Shown here: positions 3,453-15,330 of the stretch, piece after piece
Numbering within the stretch: the stretch's first letter is position 1
Layout of the letters: every line of letters begins with the position of its first letter
Source of the DNA: Allopontixanthobacter sediminis
GTDB lineage: Bacteria; Pseudomonadota; Alphaproteobacteria; Sphingomonadales; Sphingomonadaceae
Assembly: GCF_009828115.1 (NCBI RefSeq)
Contig: NZ_WTYL01000003.1
Span: 382,501 to 446,500, forward strand
DNA length: 64,000 bases
Direction of reading: 5' to 3'
Program-made: the position numbers and the translations under genes
The notes under the pieces: generated by a model
Seen by the model: only the letters and a program-made list of their open reading frames with translations
What the model was told of the DNA's origin: nothing
Database searches by the model: none

Positions 3453-4099
3453 CGGACTGTTCCTCGAGAACCAAGAATCGGTATAAGTTGCTGCCGCTAC
3501 ACGAGATAGCGGACTGCGTTCATCGGGCTTCTAGTCTCGATTGACGGCATAACGCCAGCCCCATGGCAACGAACATCAGCCAGTAAACGCGGTAGTCTTC
3601 CAATCATTCAGAAAGATTGAAAGACATTGGCAATAAAGCTGCTTTGTTACGCTACCACAAAGCACTAGGTTCGGGGGGGACTTAGCCGACATGGACATCT
3701 ACGGTCCTAAAAGTGAGGCCTGAACGTCCGCTCGGTCACCTAGTTCGGAAGTGCACGTCCTCCCCCCAGGCGGTTAGCTGCCGCTCGACCTAGGCGCTGG
3801 TAACGCGACGGCTTCCGCCGACAAAGCGGTCGTTCGCAGGTTTGTTTTTCTCATCTGAAACCTGCCATTCGTTCAGGGTTCGTGGAGCGCCCACGACTGG
3901 CGGTCATTAGGACTGCGAAAATCGGTGCTGGATGGCGAAAAGTCGCGGAAAGCAGACATCAGGTGAAAGAGTAGTTGTAGAATCTGCCGAACATGTGCCG
4001 ACAGGAAACGATGTCACCGAATATGTTGGTCTTGCGAGGATCGGTGCGAGTGTTTTTCTCGCCAACAAATGCGGATGTCGAAGCTCTTCCAGTGGCCGC
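3453..4099. other. Gap without a supported gene
   Basis: About 650 bp between the S46 gene and a small orphan frame. Family A copy A2 fills 3811-3960. The rest has no frame with convincing composition and no clear hairpin terminator. The short forward frames from 3932 run through the repeat. Confidence 0.5.
3811..3960. repeat. Family A intergenic repeat (A2)
   Basis: A nearly full copy. It has CCGCCGACAAAGCGGTCGTT, then CTGAAACCTGCC, CGTTCAGGgTTCGTgGAGC, TAGGACTGCGAAAATCGG, TGCTGGATGG and the end AAGCAGAC. The CTGAA and TTCAG arms can pair. Confidence 0.8.
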
Positions 4100-8749: not shown

Positions 8750-9769
8750 ATGAAATCGTTCAAAGGGGATTCACCGGCAGCCGCTCTTGCGAGCGTGCTG
8801 TCGGACCGAAGCGAGCTTGCTCTGGTCGCGGTCGAACGCACCCGTATGCCAATGGTCGTTACGGACCCTCTGCAACCCGATTCTCCGATCGTGCTGGCAA
8901 ACGAGGCCTTCTTAAAATTGACGGGATACTCGGCCAACGAGGTGATCGGCAGCAATTGCCGATTTTTGCAAGGTCCGAATACCGCGCCGGAGGCGATCGA
9001 GGAAATCCGGCGGGGCATCGCTGCCGATGATCACTTTGTGACTGTTGAATTGCTGAACTACCGCAAGGATGGATCCACGTTCTGGAATCAACTGGAGATC
9101 AGCCCCGTTCACGATCAAACCGGCCAGACGATTTACCACTTCGCCTCACAGAAGGATGTCACTGAAAGACGCCGGGGAGAGGAACTCGAAGTGATCGAAC
9201 GGCTGCTGTTGATGGAAGTCGACCATCGGTCAATGAACGCTTTAGCCTTGGTGCAAAGCATTCTCCAACTTACACAAGCCAACGATATATCGGGCTACTC
9301 GGCGGCGGTTATGCAGAGGGTCGACGCGATCGCGCGCGTTCATCGGCTTCTGGCAAAGTCGAGCTGGAGCGGGACGTTGCTCACCGATCTCATCACCGAA
9401 GAAATGCACGATGAGCGAGTGCAGCTAAATGGGCCCAGAGCGCTAATTTCTCCACGTCTTGCTCAGCCGCTCGCGGTCGTTCTTCACGAGTTAACTTCCA
9501 ATGCACGGCAACACGGAGCGTTGCTGACGAAGAAGGGCCGGATCTCTGTGTCTTGGACTGTCGCGGCCGAGGAACTGCAGATTGAGTGGTGGGAACAAGG
9601 AACCCATCCGATTGTTCCCGAACCGCAAATCGGGTTTGGGCTTTCTCTTGTCCAGGCAGCGGTCAACCGCCAGCTTCAGGGGACCACGAAATTGAACTGG
9701 GGCAACGACAGCTTTCGGGCGCGGATGGTCATACCTACCGACGGTGATGTGAGAATTGTAGCTTCGTAG
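8750..9769 (+). CDS. LOV-domain HWE histidine kinase (blue-light receptor)
   Basis: A 339-residue soluble sensor kinase. Residues 25-140 are a LOV domain with GSNCRFLQGPNT, whose Cys70 forms the flavin adduct in known LOV proteins. The kinase core is of the HWE/HisKA_2 class: phosphoacceptor His159 in MEVDHRSMNALAL, N-box HELTSNARQHGAL (246-258), WWE (280-282) and G-box IGFGLSLV. Architecture and length match the small LOV-HWE kinases such as EL346 of Erythrobacter litoralis. The usual HRxKN is HRSMN here. There is no response regulator nearby, so the partner is unknown. No strong Shine-Dalgarno sequence. Confidence 0.93.
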   Translation: MKSFKGDSPAAALASVLSDRSELALVAVERTRMPMVVTDPLQPDSPIVLANEAFLKLTGYSANEVIGSNCRFLQGPNTAPEAIEEIRRGIAADDHFVTVELLNYRKDGSTFWNQLEISPVHDQTGQTIYHFASQKDVTERRRGEELEVIERLLLMEVDHRSMNALALVQSILQLTQANDISGYSAAVMQRVDAIARVHRLLAKSSWSGTLLTDLITEEMHDERVQLNGPRALISPRLAQPLAVVLHELTSNARQHGALLTKKGRISVSWTVAAEELQIEWWEQGTHPIVPEPQIGFGLSLVQAAVNRQLQGTTKLNWGNDSFRARMVIPTDGDVRIVAS

Positions 9770-9825: not shown

Positions 9826-9960
9826 GCGGTATCGCCGACAAAGCCGCCATTCCGAGCCTCATTTTGCGTCATCGAAACCTGCCGTCCATTCAGGTTTCGT
9901 CGAGCAATCCCGATTGACCGCTGCTAGGGTCGTAATAATCAGGCCTAGAGGGACCAAATG
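9826..9960. repeat. Family A repeat (A4)
   Basis: TCGCCGACAAAGCCGCCATTCC, GAAACCTGCCGTCCATTCAGG and TTTCGTCGAGC match family A; the 3' third is diverged. It occupies most of the gap 9770-10090, where nothing else is seen. Confidence 0.7.
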
Positions 9961-10090: not shown

Positions 10091-10618
10091 TTAGCGGGTC
10101 ACGACGTCTTTCGACATGGGAGCCAGCTTAGCGAGAAAACGGTTTTGCACCGCAAACGGCACTCTCTCTTCGCGCATGGCTTTTTGAAGGTTCTCAACCA
10201 GGGCATTCAGGTCAGCCATTTTCACACCCAAATCAGCATGCGCAGTAATCATGTCCCGGCCCGAGTAATCACAGCCCGCATCCAGAAGGTAACAGAATTG
10301 TTCAAACAGCGTGCGCTTTAGCCGTACCGTGTCGCGCGCCACGAATATCGCTGAAATGCGCGGGTCCTGTTCGGATAATTCAACGGTTCGTTCCGCAATT
10401 TTCCGGATGCCTTCATGGCCGCCGAAGTAACTGGCCATCTTGGCATTGTCGAAAGGCTCGGCGCCTGCATTGGCATTGTCAGGGGCAAATGGTTCGATCG
10501 GAAATTCGCCGGTAAGCGGGTCGCGGACTTTTTCCTCGACGCCAAATTCCTTGTCCCAGTCGATATTCGAGGCTGGGCTTTCCTGAAGCATGACAAGTGT
10601 GAGTATTATTGAAAACAT
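10091..10618 (-). CDS. Group 1 truncated haemoglobin with N-terminal extension
   Basis: A 175-residue protein. The C-terminal 120 residues have the truncated-globin pattern: YFGGHEGIRKIAERTVELSEQDPRISAIF, then LFEQFCYLLDAGCDYSGRDMITAHADLGV, where the His of AHADLGV is the expected proximal haem ligand. The helix-B Tyr common in trHbN is not evident. The first 15 residues are hydrophobic like a signal peptide or anchor, and a linker precedes the globin, so it may be exported, which is unusual. It starts 11 bp after the DUF3034 gene, with AAGG as ribosome site, and is its operon partner. Ligand (O2, NO) unknown. Confidence 0.82.
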   Translation of the reverse strand: MFSIILTLVMLQESPASNIDWDKEFGVEEKVRDPLTGEFPIEPFAPDNANAGAEPFDNAKMASYFGGHEGIRKIAERTVELSEQDPRISAIFVARDTVRLKRTLFEQFCYLLDAGCDYSGRDMITAHADLGVKMADLNALVENLQKAMREERVPFAVQNRFLAKLAPMSKDVVTR

Positions 10619-10629
10619 GCAAAATGACC

Positions 10630-11508
10630 TTAGAATGCGATCTGCGCCGACAGGAACGCGCCGCGCTGATTTTCAAATGTGGCGATAGATCCTAAATCGG
10701 CATAAGCGGCTGTTACCGTAACATTATCCGTTACCGCAAAGGCGGCGAACAGGTCCATCCAGTTGTCTTCTCCCAATCCGAGATTATCGGGTTTGGTCCG
10801 CATTTCCGCACCGATTATGGCGCGGCGCGAGAGCTGATAGGCCAGTGAACCTTCGAACTGGAAATCGTAACCTTTTCCCGCAGCGCTGCCAAAACCCAGC
10901 AAGCCAGTTTGATTTGCCTCGGTATAGCGCGCCGTGGCGGAAACTAGCAGACTGCGCGAAAGGATCAGTTTGGATGCGCTCAATGTGAAATCGGTGCCAT
11001 TTGGGCTGTCAGCACCCACAGCCGTGGTGACCGCCCCGTCAAGATTGCGCTTATGCTGAACGCCGACACTGATTTGCGGAACAAGTGGCTCACCATAAAC
11101 CAGGTCGCCCGCTAGGCGCAGCTTTGCGGCAAAGACATCCTGATTTAGCGTGTACCCCTGTCCGAGGCCCAGCGCCGTTCCGACATCGCGTGTATCGAAA
11201 TTTTGGCGAGCATAGGACAGCTCGACCCGGTTCGCGATCCCAATGGCCACCCCGTGGCTCTGCCATCCATAATCGGGAAGTTCGATCACCGTAACATGGC
11301 CGGTAACTCCGATACCGCGATCGGTTTCGAGCCCGCTGATCGTGGCCCATGTGGCAATACCGCCGCCGCTGGCACCCTCGATGGAGCTGGCTGCATTGGT
11401 TAACACCAGCTTGCCGCCATCCAGAAAATCGCCGTCTTTTGCAGCGACATTCGAAGGGGATGCGACAATTGAGAGAATGAACGCAGTGAAGGAAAGGAGC
11501 CTAGCCAT
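10630..11508 (-). CDS. DUF3034-family outer membrane protein
   Basis: A 292-residue exported protein with a signal peptide (residues 1-23, ending VAA), the DUF3034 start (GGKLVLTNAASSIEGASGGGIATWATI) and alternating amphipathic strands ending in the terminal aromatic FLSAQIAF, typical of an outer-membrane beta-barrel. Function of the family is unknown. It is the first gene of a transcript with the truncated haemoglobin and is divergent from the cupredoxin-like and GGDEF/EAL genes. DUF3034, methylamine-utilisation-like and GGDEF/EAL genes are often neighbours in proteobacteria, to my knowledge, so the locus is probably one functional unit. Confidence 0.85.
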   Translation of the reverse strand: MARLLSFTAFILSIVASPSNVAAKDGDFLDGGKLVLTNAASSIEGASGGGIATWATISGLETDRGIGVTGHVTVIELPDYGWQSHGVAIGIANRVELSYARQNFDTRDVGTALGLGQGYTLNQDVFAAKLRLAGDLVYGEPLVPQISVGVQHKRNLDGAVTTAVGADSPNGTDFTLSASKLILSRSLLVSATARYTEANQTGLLGFGSAAGKGYDFQFEGSLAYQLSRRAIIGAEMRTKPDNLGLGEDNWMDLFAAFAVTDNVTVTAAYADLGSIATFENQRGAFLSAQIAF

Positions 11509-11607
11509 CTCTGTTCATTGGCGGATGATGGTTAAATCCTAGTTAATCACCATTCGCGCCCGGACCGAAGAGCTTTGTTAAGTCTTTCCGGCTATTCCGG
11601 CACCACT

Positions 11608-12219
11608 GTGAAATTCCTTCTCTTTCCTCTCGTATTGGTATGCCTCGGCCTCCCATTGGCTACGTCATGGGCGGCGGGCAACTCTGCCGTGCGCATCCAG
11701 GTCGTGGACGAGAACGGTGTTCCGGTGCGCGATGCCGTGGTCGAAATCACACCCGCCAGCAGCAGCGGCAACGAATTCCGATTTCCGTGGCGCGCAGCGA
11801 TGGCACAGAAAGACCTGGCTTTCACTCCCGGCACTTTGGTTGTGGCAAAGGGCAGTTCCGTCGCGTTCCCCAATCTCGACCGCGTACGCCACAGCATCTA
11901 CAGTTTTTCAAAGGCAGCACGCTTTGAAATCGACCTCTACGGACGAGACCAGACACGCAGCCAATCTTTCCCGGCAACCGGAACTGTCTCGCTGGGCTGC
12001 AACATTCACGACATGATGCGGGGATACATTCGCGTCGTCGATACTCCGTATGCAGGCATGACCGATCACAATGGCATCATGTCAGTTGCGGGTGTACCCA
12101 ACGGCCGCGCCACGGTCACCTTGTGGCACCCGCGCCTTCGTTCGCCGGCTAATGAGTCCAGCAGCAGCATTACAATCGCTGGTAGCCTGTCGAAGAAATA
12201 TACGGTCAAATTGAAATGA
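11608..12219 (+). CDS. Periplasmic cupredoxin-like protein (methylamine utilisation/MauL type)
   Basis: A 203-residue secreted protein. The preferred start is GTG 11608, which gives a clean signal peptide (KFLLFPLVLVCLGLPLATSWAAG); a TTG at 11575 would add 11 residues. The mature part has a plastocyanin/azurin-like fold pattern: VVAKGSSVAFPNLDRVRHSIYSFSKAARFEI, later GTVSLGCNIHDMMRGYIRVVDTPYAGMTDHNG. These hold the His and the Cys-x-x-His-x-x-Met set of a blue-copper site. Such genes are annotated as methylamine utilisation protein, often without methylamine dehydrogenase genes, as here. It overlaps the GGDEF/EAL gene by 4 bp, so it may feed a copper or redox signal to it. Confidence 0.8.
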   Translation: MKFLLFPLVLVCLGLPLATSWAAGNSAVRIQVVDENGVPVRDAVVEITPASSSGNEFRFPWRAAMAQKDLAFTPGTLVVAKGSSVAFPNLDRVRHSIYSFSKAARFEIDLYGRDQTRSQSFPATGTVSLGCNIHDMMRGYIRVVDTPYAGMTDHNGIMSVAGVPNGRATVTLWHPRLRSPANESSSSITIAGSLSKKYTVKLK

Positions 12220-14528
12220 CCCCGACGTTGCAACGGATTGCTTCGTTACGCTTTGGTTCGCTCAGGCTGCGCATTGCCGTACTGTACGCTGCCCTGTTCG
12301 CTGCAGTCATAGCGGTGATCATGATCATTGTCGGCCAGGGCATCGCCCGTTTCGGTGAAAACAGTGCGACCCGCGATCTGGCTGCCAACGCCCGCGTATT
12401 CGACGAAATTCTGGATTTGCGCGCCCGCCAGATGCGCGGTGCAGCCGATGTCCTTTCCCGTGACTTCGGATTTCGTGCAGCAGTCGCGACTAACGACAGG
12501 GCAACCATCTCCAGCGCACTCGATAGCCTGCGTAACCGTTCGCGCAGCAGCGCTGCATTTGTGGTGGGGTATGACGGGTCATTGATTGGTTCTACCGGTA
12601 ACCTCCTTCCCGATGGCGAGAAACTGTGGGCGCCTTTGGATGATGGCACCGAGCGCGGCGTCATCCGGGTCGGAAATGACATGGCTCTGGCCGCCGCTTC
12701 ACCTATCGAAGTCCCAGATCTGGTAGGCTGGTTAGTGGTCACGCAGCCGCTCGATAAAGTCGAGATGGATAGGCTGGTAAAGCTGGCTGCAATAAATTTG
12801 AGCGCCAAGGTCATCCGTACGGCTGACCTGTCCCCCAGTTTGAAATCGGCACCTCTGGGGAAAGTGTTCGAACACAGTGATGGCGACCGCTTTCTCGTCC
12901 GGATATCAACTCTACCAGCGCTTGAGGATGGATTGGCACCCCTCCTCGTGCTGCGCCATTCACTGACCGGATCGCTAGCGGAATATAACGGGTTGAAATG
13001 GTTGCTGGCACTTCTCGCGATTGCAGGACTTGCGCTAGTCATCGCATTAAGCTGGCGCGTGGCGCGAACAATCACAGCGCCGCTTCGCAAACTCGATGAA
13101 GCAACGCGGCTGGTTGGCGAAGGTCGCCAAGTGGAAGTGCTGGTCGAGACAAATGACGAAATCGGGCGTCTTGCCGGCAGCTTCAACACGATGATCAAAG
13201 CCATCGACGAGCGCGAGAAGCGTATTATCCACGTCGGCTTGCATGATGGACTAACTAGCCTGCCCAATCGCAAACTATTCGTTGAACAATTGGCGCAATC
13301 CCTTGCCCGGCAGAAGGAGGATGACCGTTTGATGGTCATCTATGTCGATCTGGATGATTTCAAGGTAGTCAACGACACGCTCGGACATCCGGCAGGCGAC
13401 GCATTGCTGCGCAATGTGGCGAACCATTTGCAGTGCCAATTGAAGGATGCCACAATCGCGCGATTAGGCGGCGACGAGTTTGCAATTTTGATCGACGGAG
13501 TGGGATCGGACGAAAGCCTCGCTTCGATCGCGCGAGATGTCCAATCATGCTTCATGCGAACCATTTCCATCGATGGGCAACAAGCCGACTGTTCGGCCAG
13601 TCTTGGCATAGCAGTGGCTCCGGGAGACGGCGCTGACAGCAATACGTTGATGAAGCATGCCGACCTCGCTCTTTACCGCGCGAAACGCGAAGGCAAATCC
13701 GGCCATCATTTCTTCGAACCATCGCTCGACGAACAGGCACGCATCCGCCGCCAGATGGAACTGGACCTGCGCCAGGCAATCCGCGAGGGCGAGTTCGAAT
13801 TATACTTCCAGCCGCTATACAGTCTGACCGAGGAGAGGCTGAAAGGTTTCGAAGCATTGATCCGCTGGCAGCATCCGCAGCACGGCCAGATAAGCCCACT
13901 GGAATTCATCCCACTGGCGGAAGAGACCGGACTAATTCTTCCAATTGGTGAATGGGTGATCCGCGAGGCATGCCATCAGGCCAGTATGTGGAACGACAAA
14001 CTGTCAGTTGCGGTCAATGTCTCGCCCAAGCAATTCACCTCGCCCGATCTCACTGGCAAGATTCTTCAGGCAATCGCCGCGTCGGGCATCTCCCCGAACC
14101 GGCTCGAGTTGGAGATTACTGAAAGCATCTTCATCGCGAACGTCGAAAAGACAATGGCGATACTGCACAGGTTACGTGATTTGGGTGTTAAGATCGCTCT
14201 GGACGATTTTGGGACTGGCTATTCGTCGCTTAGCTATCTGCGTTCTTTCCCCTTCGATAAGGTGAAGATAGACAGATCCTTCGTCACCGATCTTGCCAAT
14301 GGCGGCAATGGCCATGCCATTATTCGCGCGATCACGACGCTGGCTGATGCGCTGGGGATGGAAACGCTGGCGGAAGGGGTGGAGGAATTCGATCAGCTCG
14401 ACATTCTCCGGCGCGAAGGCTGCCGCAATGTGCAGGGCTTCCTGCTCAGCAAACCGCTGTCGGCATTGATGGTCCGCCAATGGATGAACGGTGACGCAGA
14501 GAAGAACTTTCGCGCCAGCGCGGCTTAG
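12216..14528 (+). CDS. Membrane diguanylate cyclase/phosphodiesterase (HAMP-GGDEF-EAL)
   Basis: A 770-residue c-di-GMP enzyme. It has TM1 (18-41), a periplasmic sensor domain of about 220 residues, TM2 (260-282), HAMP (283-335), GGDEF with an intact GGDEF at 418-422, and EAL with EAL 546-548, ELEITES and DDFGTGYS (663-670). Both active sites look complete, but the RxxD product-inhibition site before GGDEF is not present (QLKD). Its ATG overlaps the stop of the cupredoxin-like gene as ATGA, so the periplasmic copper-type protein is the best candidate for an input to the sensor domain. No PilZ or biofilm gene is nearby. Confidence 0.93.
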   Translation: MTPTLQRIASLRFGSLRLRIAVLYAALFAAVIAVIMIIVGQGIARFGENSATRDLAANARVFDEILDLRARQMRGAADVLSRDFGFRAAVATNDRATISSALDSLRNRSRSSAAFVVGYDGSLIGSTGNLLPDGEKLWAPLDDGTERGVIRVGNDMALAAASPIEVPDLVGWLVVTQPLDKVEMDRLVKLAAINLSAKVIRTADLSPSLKSAPLGKVFEHSDGDRFLVRISTLPALEDGLAPLLVLRHSLTGSLAEYNGLKWLLALLAIAGLALVIALSWRVARTITAPLRKLDEATRLVGEGRQVEVLVETNDEIGRLAGSFNTMIKAIDEREKRIIHVGLHDGLTSLPNRKLFVEQLAQSLARQKEDDRLMVIYVDLDDFKVVNDTLGHPAGDALLRNVANHLQCQLKDATIARLGGDEFAILIDGVGSDESLASIARDVQSCFMRTISIDGQQADCSASLGIAVAPGDGADSNTLMKHADLALYRAKREGKSGHHFFEPSLDEQARIRRQMELDLRQAIREGEFELYFQPLYSLTEERLKGFEALIRWQHPQHGQISPLEFIPLAEETGLILPIGEWVIREACHQASMWNDKLSVAVNVSPKQFTSPDLTGKILQAIAASGISPNRLELEITESIFIANVEKTMAILHRLRDLGVKIALDDFGTGYSSLSYLRSFPFDKVKIDRSFVTDLANGGNGHAIIRAITTLADALGMETLAEGVEEFDQLDILRREGCRNVQGFLLSKPLSALMVRQWMNGDAEKNFRASAA

Positions 14529-14610: not shown

Positions 14611-14770
14611 GTAGCGCGACCGCTACCGCTGACAAAGCGGTCATTCCCGCGCTCATTCTACTCCCCTGAAAGCCGCCCTACGTTCAGGTTTCGTTGAGCG
14701 CCCCGAACGGCAGATTTTAGGGCTGCGAAATCGGTGTTGGATGGCAAGAATTAAGGTGGAAAGCGGACAT
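14611..14770. repeat. Family A repeat (A5)
   Basis: A full copy: CCGCTGACAAAGCGGTCATTCC, CTGAAAGCCGCCCTACGTTCAGG, TTTCGTTGAGCGCCCC, TTTTAGGGCTGCGAAATCGG, TGTTGGATGGC and the end GGAAAGCGGACAT. It fills most of the gap between the GGDEF/EAL gene and the VOC gene. Confidence 0.85.
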
Positions 14771-14828: not shown

Positions 14829-15227
14829 TCAGGCAGGAAAATGAATTCCGCACAGTTTGTTGCCGTCGGGATCACGAAAATAGGCCAGTTCGATGGTGCC
14901 CATGGAGGCAGTTTCGCGCGGTCCTGGCGGAGCTTCGATCGAGGTTCCGCCAGCGGCAACGGCGGTATCGTGAAGCTGCTTCACCTGCTCGGACGAGTCG
15001 CAGGAAAAGGCGACTGTGCTGCCGTTGGCGACGCTTGCCGGTTCGTCGTTGATCGGCTGGCTGACGATGAAGTTGGTTCCGTTGCCGTTATTGTAGATCA
15101 GACGGGTATGGCCGCTGTCGGCGATGTTCCGTGTCCCTTCCCCTGCACCCAAGGTGCCGAGCACCGTGTCGTAGAAGCGCTTGGATCGTTCAATGTCGTT
15201 CGATCCGACCATGGTGTGAAAAAGCAC
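14829..15227 (-). CDS. VOC (glyoxalase/bleomycin resistance) family protein
   Basis: A 132-residue metal-binding-fold protein with VGSNDIERSKRFYDTVLG at the N-terminus and FRDPDGNKLCGIHFPA at the C-terminus, the usual single-unit VOC length. I chose GTG 15227 because AGGAG lies 7 bases upstream and the family begins with a short strand (LFHTMVG). An internal ATG six codons later is possible. The isolated single-copy gene gives no substrate hint. Confidence 0.85.
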   Translation of the reverse strand: MLFHTMVGSNDIERSKRFYDTVLGTLGAGEGTRNIADSGHTRLIYNNGNGTNFIVSQPINDEPASVANGSTVAFSCDSSEQVKQLHDTAVAAGGTSIEAPPGPRETASMGTIELAYFRDPDGNKLCGIHFPA

Positions 15228-15330
15228 GCATACTCTCCTGAAGGCTGATCGACTTCCGATCGCCATTATCGGTCTCACCTAACAGGCACGTAACCCGCAG
15301 TCACCCCCGGCCCTTGGAATGTCCGCTTGT

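Follow-up and report, generated by a model that had tools for sequence, protein, structure and literature searches.

A recurrent set of four genes encoding an exported globin, a DUF3034 protein, a cupredoxin-like protein and a c-di-GMP enzyme in Pseudomonadota: a possible envelope signalling module

Genes at the Locus

We have analyzed four genes at positions 10091-14528 of a stretch of 64,000 nucleotides from the genome of Allopontixanthobacter sediminis (contig NZ_WTYL01000003.1, positions 382,501 to 446,500), which is called the window hereafter. An original prediction, made from the sequence before any database search, described these genes as those of a truncated globin, a DUF3034 barrel, a cupredoxin-like protein and an enzyme of cyclic di-GMP (c-di-GMP) turnover, and proposed that they form a redox-signalling unit. 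Pfam searches and a check of the sequence itself have found all four genes where that prediction had placed them. The features are as follows.

10091..10618, minus strand: truncated globin of the group 1 type, predicted to be exported (Pfam Bac_globin, 3.7e-7)
10630..11508, minus strand: DUF3034 protein, modelled as an outer-membrane beta-barrel (Pfam, 3.9e-89)
11530..11546, minus strand: CtrA-type box TTAACTAGGATTTAACC (TTAA-N7-TTAAC), upstream of the DUF3034-globin pair (motif match)
11608..12219, plus strand: periplasmic cupredoxin-like protein (start at GTG 11608 preferred; the longest open reading frame (ORF) begins at TTG 11575)
12216..14528, plus strand: dCache_3-HAMP-GGDEF-EAL protein of 770 amino acids in the inner membrane (Pfam domains)

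The two pairs are transcribed divergently in the window. On the minus strand DUF3034 comes first, with a gap of 11 bp before the globin, and on the plus strand the end of the cupredoxin-like gene (12219) and the start of the enzyme gene (12216) share the sequence ATGA, which is the overlap of 4 bp that had been pointed out from the sequence. The start of the cupredoxin-like gene is probably GTG 11608 rather than TTG 11575, because of MKFLLFPLVLVCLGLPLATSWAAG, a clean signal peptide and a product of 203 amino acids, which is the length of close homologues.

Conservation of the Gene Set

The survey covered 398 Pseudomonadota genomes and 120 genomes of the family to which the window belongs; profiles made from the proteins of the window were used to annotate the neighbourhoods of all genomes with DUF3034. 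DUF3034 is present in 39 of the 398 genomes, and the globin adjoins it in all 39, against 2 of the 359 genomes without DUF3034 that have a globin of this kind anywhere. When the search was started from the globin, 42 matches of at least 140 bits were obtained, 40 of them beside DUF3034, and the next match was at 93 bits. The cupredoxin (at least 130 bits) occurs in 38 of the 39 genomes with DUF3034 and in 13 of the 359 without it, these counts treating as independent genomes that are in fact related. The neighbourhood is thus conserved far beyond close relatives, as a survey proposed together with the original prediction was meant to examine, and the globin, whose frequency had been raised as a question, accompanies DUF3034 more faithfully than any other partner and is not an optional extra.

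In the family of the window, DUF3034 and the cupredoxin are carried by one and the same group of 15 genomes out of 120 (14 of 96 genera), and the globin is present in 14 of these 15, the locus of the fifteenth stopping at a contig edge; inheritance of the module in this family is all-or-none. Eighty further named loci were found in Erythrobacteraceae, Sphingomonas, Novosphingobium, Brevundimonas, Phenylobacterium, Caulobacter and relatives of Hyphomonas.

Because the genomes are not independent, a gene order that has been rearranged and still kept together is a sharper argument than these counts. No fewer than six arrangements retain the set. Most alphaproteobacteria have divergent pairs, and 22 loci of the survey have the colinear order cupredoxin-EAL-DUF3034-globin; the order DUF3034-globin-cupredoxin, tail-to-tail variants and further arrangements also occur. 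The DUF3034-globin pair stands alone in four genomes (loci L177-L180), with the cupredoxin-EAL pair located elsewhere in the same genome.

Two loci deserve separate mention. In the nearest relative sampled, belonging to the same genus (L085 / L097), the EAL gene is found as two ORFs, which may be due to a frameshift or to an assembly error in a metagenome-assembled genome. At L167:1757-5348, DUF3034 and the globin are followed by a short cupredoxin of 97 amino acids and a HAMP-PAS histidine kinase, possibly a variant output.

Properties of the Four Proteins

The window globin consists of a hydrophobic N-terminus, a linker and a globin domain at about residues 62-173, with the proximal His127 (F8), Phe92 at CD1 and the pair Cys109-x6-Cys116. 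Its profile matches HbN of Mycobacterium (9.8e-25; PDB 1idr/2gkn), and the proximal His is found in 130 of 130 globin sequences and the CD1 Phe in 129, which together with the match assign the protein to the group 1 truncated hemoglobins. It shares with HbN the segment Y-T-G-x-x-M-x-x-x-H as well as these two residues, but differs in its predicted export or lipid anchor, in the C-x6-C pair and in its distal pocket. The distal residues of the window globin are apolar (Val79 at B10, Leu100 at E7, Leu104 at E11); among the 130 sequences, B10 is V, L, I or M in 126 and never the Tyr of HbN, and E11 is Leu in 119 and never the Gln of HbN, so that the polar distal network which serves O2 binding and NO dioxygenation in this group, Tyr B10 with Gln or Thr at E11, was seen in none of them. 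A globin-coupled sensor with its distal Tyr mutated loses stable O2 binding, and its heme is oxidized faster (PMC12805357); since a distal Tyr is absent here, O2 is unlikely to be the ligand. We have thus rejected an O2-binding role, the one part of the original prediction that did not stand, and the pocket suggests that a role with NO, CO or redox change is possible.

The C-x6-C pair is present in 121 of the 130 globins and the other nine lack both cysteines; joint gain or loss is the pattern expected of a disulfide in an exported protein. A hydrophobic N-terminus is found in all globins of the set; a predicted lipobox lies at its end in 22 of 25 colinear loci, two more being lipobox-like by eye. 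Asp never occurs at position +2 of these lipoboxes, which by the E. coli rule indicates the outer membrane, and the globin is predicted to be an outer-membrane lipoprotein in many lineages. The window globin has no lipobox, and its export is deduced from its N-terminus and from its relatives; the earlier suggestion that it may be exported gains support, at the level of sequence, from all these characteristics. Weaker relatives of the exported globin (about 60 bits) were also noticed as tandem pairs in many small genomes of family f38, away from DUF3034 (e.g., G029:C4:64743-65609 and G056:C44:10896-11741).

The DUF3034 protein matches PF11231 at 299 bits (gathering score, 25) over positions 1-255 of 255, and has a signal peptide, a conserved Gly-rich N-terminal segment and a C-terminal Phe. 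In its AlphaFold model (predicted local distance difference test score (pLDDT), 82), 12 strands are long enough to span a membrane. With this model Foldseek found FapF (2.6e-8), NanC and KdgM (TM score by target up to 0.85), which are outer-membrane barrels of similar size. The protein is therefore modelled as a 12-stranded outer-membrane beta-barrel, in line with the barrel proposed originally.

In the cupredoxin, the copper ligands are His106, Cys142, His145 and Met148 (numbered from TTG 11575). This His-Cys-His-Met set, with the amicyanin spacing C-x2-H-x2-M of a type-1 site, is complete in 140 of 140 sequences; an incomplete copper site had been named beforehand as evidence against a redox-signalling unit. 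The model (pLDDT, 92) has a fold that matches amicyanin (1e-6) and the C-terminal domain of NirK. The protein was rejected as an amicyanin, since it scores only 18.2 bits against the equivalog TIGR02657 (cut-off, 110.2). Pfam CarboxypepD_reg matches lie partly before the cupredoxin and, in a relative, partly after it, which suggests that the cupredoxin is inserted in a second, CarboxypepD_reg-like beta domain. Thus the loop and the fold are those of amicyanin and NirK-type domains, whereas the apparent insertion and the partner, a signal receptor instead of methylamine dehydrogenase, set the protein apart from amicyanin.

This partnership was observed widely: 129 of 144 cupredoxin genes adjoin an ORF that encodes the sensor domain of the module, usually a GGDEF-EAL protein but also a dCache_3-guanylate cyclase (L183, L185) or a dCache_3-Ser/Thr kinase (L194). 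Because the input domain is what these neighbours have in common whatever the output, the cupredoxin looks like a co-receptor for the dCache_3 input side. Relatives without a sensor adjoin exported-looking proteins of about 400 amino acids (L181:5718-6971, L198:3670-4905, L201:3646-4908 and L188:5377-6606); the three of these four that were scanned gave no Pfam match, and the four may represent another barrel family partnered with the cupredoxin.

The enzyme of the window has a periplasmic dCache_3/CHASE4-like sensor, as had been expected, followed by HAMP, GGDEF and EAL domains. Both catalytic domains look intact, with a GGDEF motif and all EAL catalytic residues, and no RxxD I-site was seen in its GGDEF domain. 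Among relatives, the ten EAL catalytic positions are kept in 118-119 of 119 proteins, and of 123 aligned sequences 71 have an intact GGDEF motif. Because the EAL residues are near-invariant and GGDEF has often decayed, the shared output of the module is probably that of a phosphodiesterase in the main, which narrows the original idea that the locus "sets" c-di-GMP to its degradation.

A CtrA-Type Box in the Promoter Region

In alphaproteobacteria, a relaxed form of the box, TTA[AG]-N7-TT[AT]AC, was found in the DUF3034-cupredoxin interval at 13 of 75 loci, where 0.28 would be expected; none of 198 other intergenic stretches has it. The enrichment is overstated, because the 75 loci are related. 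The count peaks sharply at the spacer of 7 bp, other spacers giving 0-4, and the half-site TTAACCAT is present in 14 of 75 module intervals and 0 of 198 control stretches. Box and half-site match the published full- and half-site motifs of CtrA (PMC3692519; PMC7200025), which in the second of these studies also controls c-di-GMP genes. A genome-wide search with TTAR-N7-TTAACC found 7 sites, and the reversed control had 11, so that there is no enrichment; the motif alone is uninformative at this scale, and the case rests on the promoter comparison. On that basis we regard the DUF3034-globin promoter as a candidate member of the CtrA regulon in alphaproteobacteria.

Neighbouring Features

Outside the conserved set, a LOV-type blue-light-activated histidine kinase adjoins the module (8750-9769, plus strand; NCBIfam NF052306, 483 bits against a cut-off of 450), and a glyoxalase-family protein lies 3' of the EAL gene (14829-15278, minus strand; Pfam, 3.2e-12). 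A dispersed intergenic repeat with the core TTCAGGTTTCGTYGAGC is located on either side of the four genes (9889-9905 and 14683-14699), with further copies in the window at 3872, 18633 and 53827. Nine copies exist genome-wide at no more than one mismatch; eight share their orientation, and most are within about 85 kb of contig C3.

Proposed Mechanism and Alternatives

On balance we favour, with some reserve, the view that the four genes constitute one envelope signalling module similar to YfiBNR. The exported globin and the DUF3034 barrel would be the sensing end at the outer membrane; the globin heme, having no hydrogen-bonding distal residues, would bind NO or another ligand or change its redox state, and would pass this on to the type-1 copper protein. 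The latter would act in the periplasm as co-receptor, the signal that it presents to the dCache_3 domain being its copper occupancy or its redox state, and the inner-membrane enzyme would be the transducer, with c-di-GMP breakdown as its conserved activity. The resulting change in c-di-GMP would alter motility or biofilm formation, the choice between swimming and sticking. Physical contacts, direction of signal flow, ligand and motility/biofilm output are what we infer. Copper and redox state taken together have about an even chance of being the signal; NO, with which the distal pocket appears compatible, is a more tentative candidate, and O2 is very improbable. Of the original redox-signalling unit, co-occurrence, copper site, export, barrel and periplasmic sensor are thus retained, and O2 as ligand is given up.

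The closest known system is YfiBNR (TpbB/YfiN) of Pseudomonas aeruginosa, in which an outer-membrane lipoprotein, a small periplasmic protein and an inner-membrane c-di-GMP enzyme are co-encoded (PMC2837407). The likeness is one of layout without likeness of sequence: Pfam scans of the module proteins gave globin, DUF3034 and cupredoxin-like matches and nothing homologous to YfiB or YfiR. The module enzyme combines a dCache_3 sensor with a conserved EAL phosphodiesterase, whereas YfiN is a diguanylate cyclase; YfiB is OmpA/Pal-like, whereas the module has a heme globin as the predicted lipoprotein, a copper protein as the periplasmic part and an additional outer-membrane barrel. Globin-coupled sensors, H-NOX and NosP sense in the cytoplasm, being fused to the enzyme or touching it directly. 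With these the module shares a genetic link between a heme protein and c-di-GMP turnover, but its heme protein appears to be exported and a copper protein stands in between.

Several observations weigh against a single module. The cupredoxin-EAL pair occurs without DUF3034-globin (L182, L189-L193, L202), and DUF3034-globin without a linked cupredoxin-EAL pair (L046, L047, L050, L057), so that the two halves can work apart; a profile search of genome G078 found no cupredoxin at all, and at some loci (L181, L198, L201) a different predicted barrel adjoins the cupredoxin and a sensor is missing. In a rough test, whose 34 genomes without DUF3034 were drawn partly from earlier hit lists, association was seen neither for NnrS (19 of 39 genomes with DUF3034, 14 of 34 without) nor for NirK (3 of 39 and 4 of 34); the window's genome has no match over cut-off to either, and we have rejected a link to endogenous denitrification. 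It is conceivable, if rather unlikely, that there are two units without contact, namely DUF3034-globin as a pore and heme protein for detoxification or transport and cupredoxin-phosphodiesterase as a copper or redox sensor, which are neighbours owing to shared conditions. The separate occurrence of each pair, the divergent transcription in the window and the membership of the globin in the HbN-like group, whose known role is NO dioxygenation, agree with this. The all-or-none inheritance in the window's family, the cupredoxin in 38 of 39 genomes with DUF3034 even when unlinked, and the colinear, operon-like order in many genomes argue for the single module instead, and NO dioxygenation, which depends on O2, does not fit the apolar distal pocket.

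We give still less weight to an electron-transfer or metal-handling module, in which the heme globin, the type-1 copper protein and the outer-membrane barrel would move electrons, copper or iron across the envelope and the c-di-GMP enzyme would regulate them. Electron transport is the normal function of type-1 copper sites, the best matches of the cupredoxin are the NirK C-terminal domain and amicyanin, and some relatives are beside other predicted barrels, L184 and L188 being by eye iron-uptake-like loci; nevertheless, the cupredoxin recurs with a signalling receptor whose outputs vary, neither a cytochrome nor an oxidoreductase was seen to accompany the set constantly, and each set has only one heme and one copper site. 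Chance neighbourhood or hitch-hiking without a functional link has been rejected as having next to no probability, in view of the association counts and of the rearranged but retained orders across many families; no point in its favour was found.

Biological Significance

In the open-access literature searched, we found no description of the four-gene set as a unit (one apparent match to MauL was an author's name). The set is real and widespread, being present in roughly a tenth of sampled Pseudomonadota, and its parts are of known kinds while the combination is new. It is possible, though doubtful as yet, that it exemplifies a new kind of sensor that reads gas or redox state across the envelope, in which an outer-membrane heme globin and barrel act through a type-1 copper adaptor on c-di-GMP breakdown, the copper protein being a general dCache_3 adaptor across outputs. 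Heme-based control of c-di-GMP has so far been known from cytoplasmic sensors; if the single module is correct, an exported heme protein, a barrel and a copper protein, inherited together with a phosphodiesterase, would be an unrecognised way to read the chemistry of the envelope. With the module, DUF3034 receives a role that can be tested. The module could also account for the presence of such cupredoxins next to signalling genes, and it makes the copper protein a possible partner of the dCache_3 receptors, few of whose ligands are known; for alphaproteobacteria, one candidate is added to the CtrA regulon.

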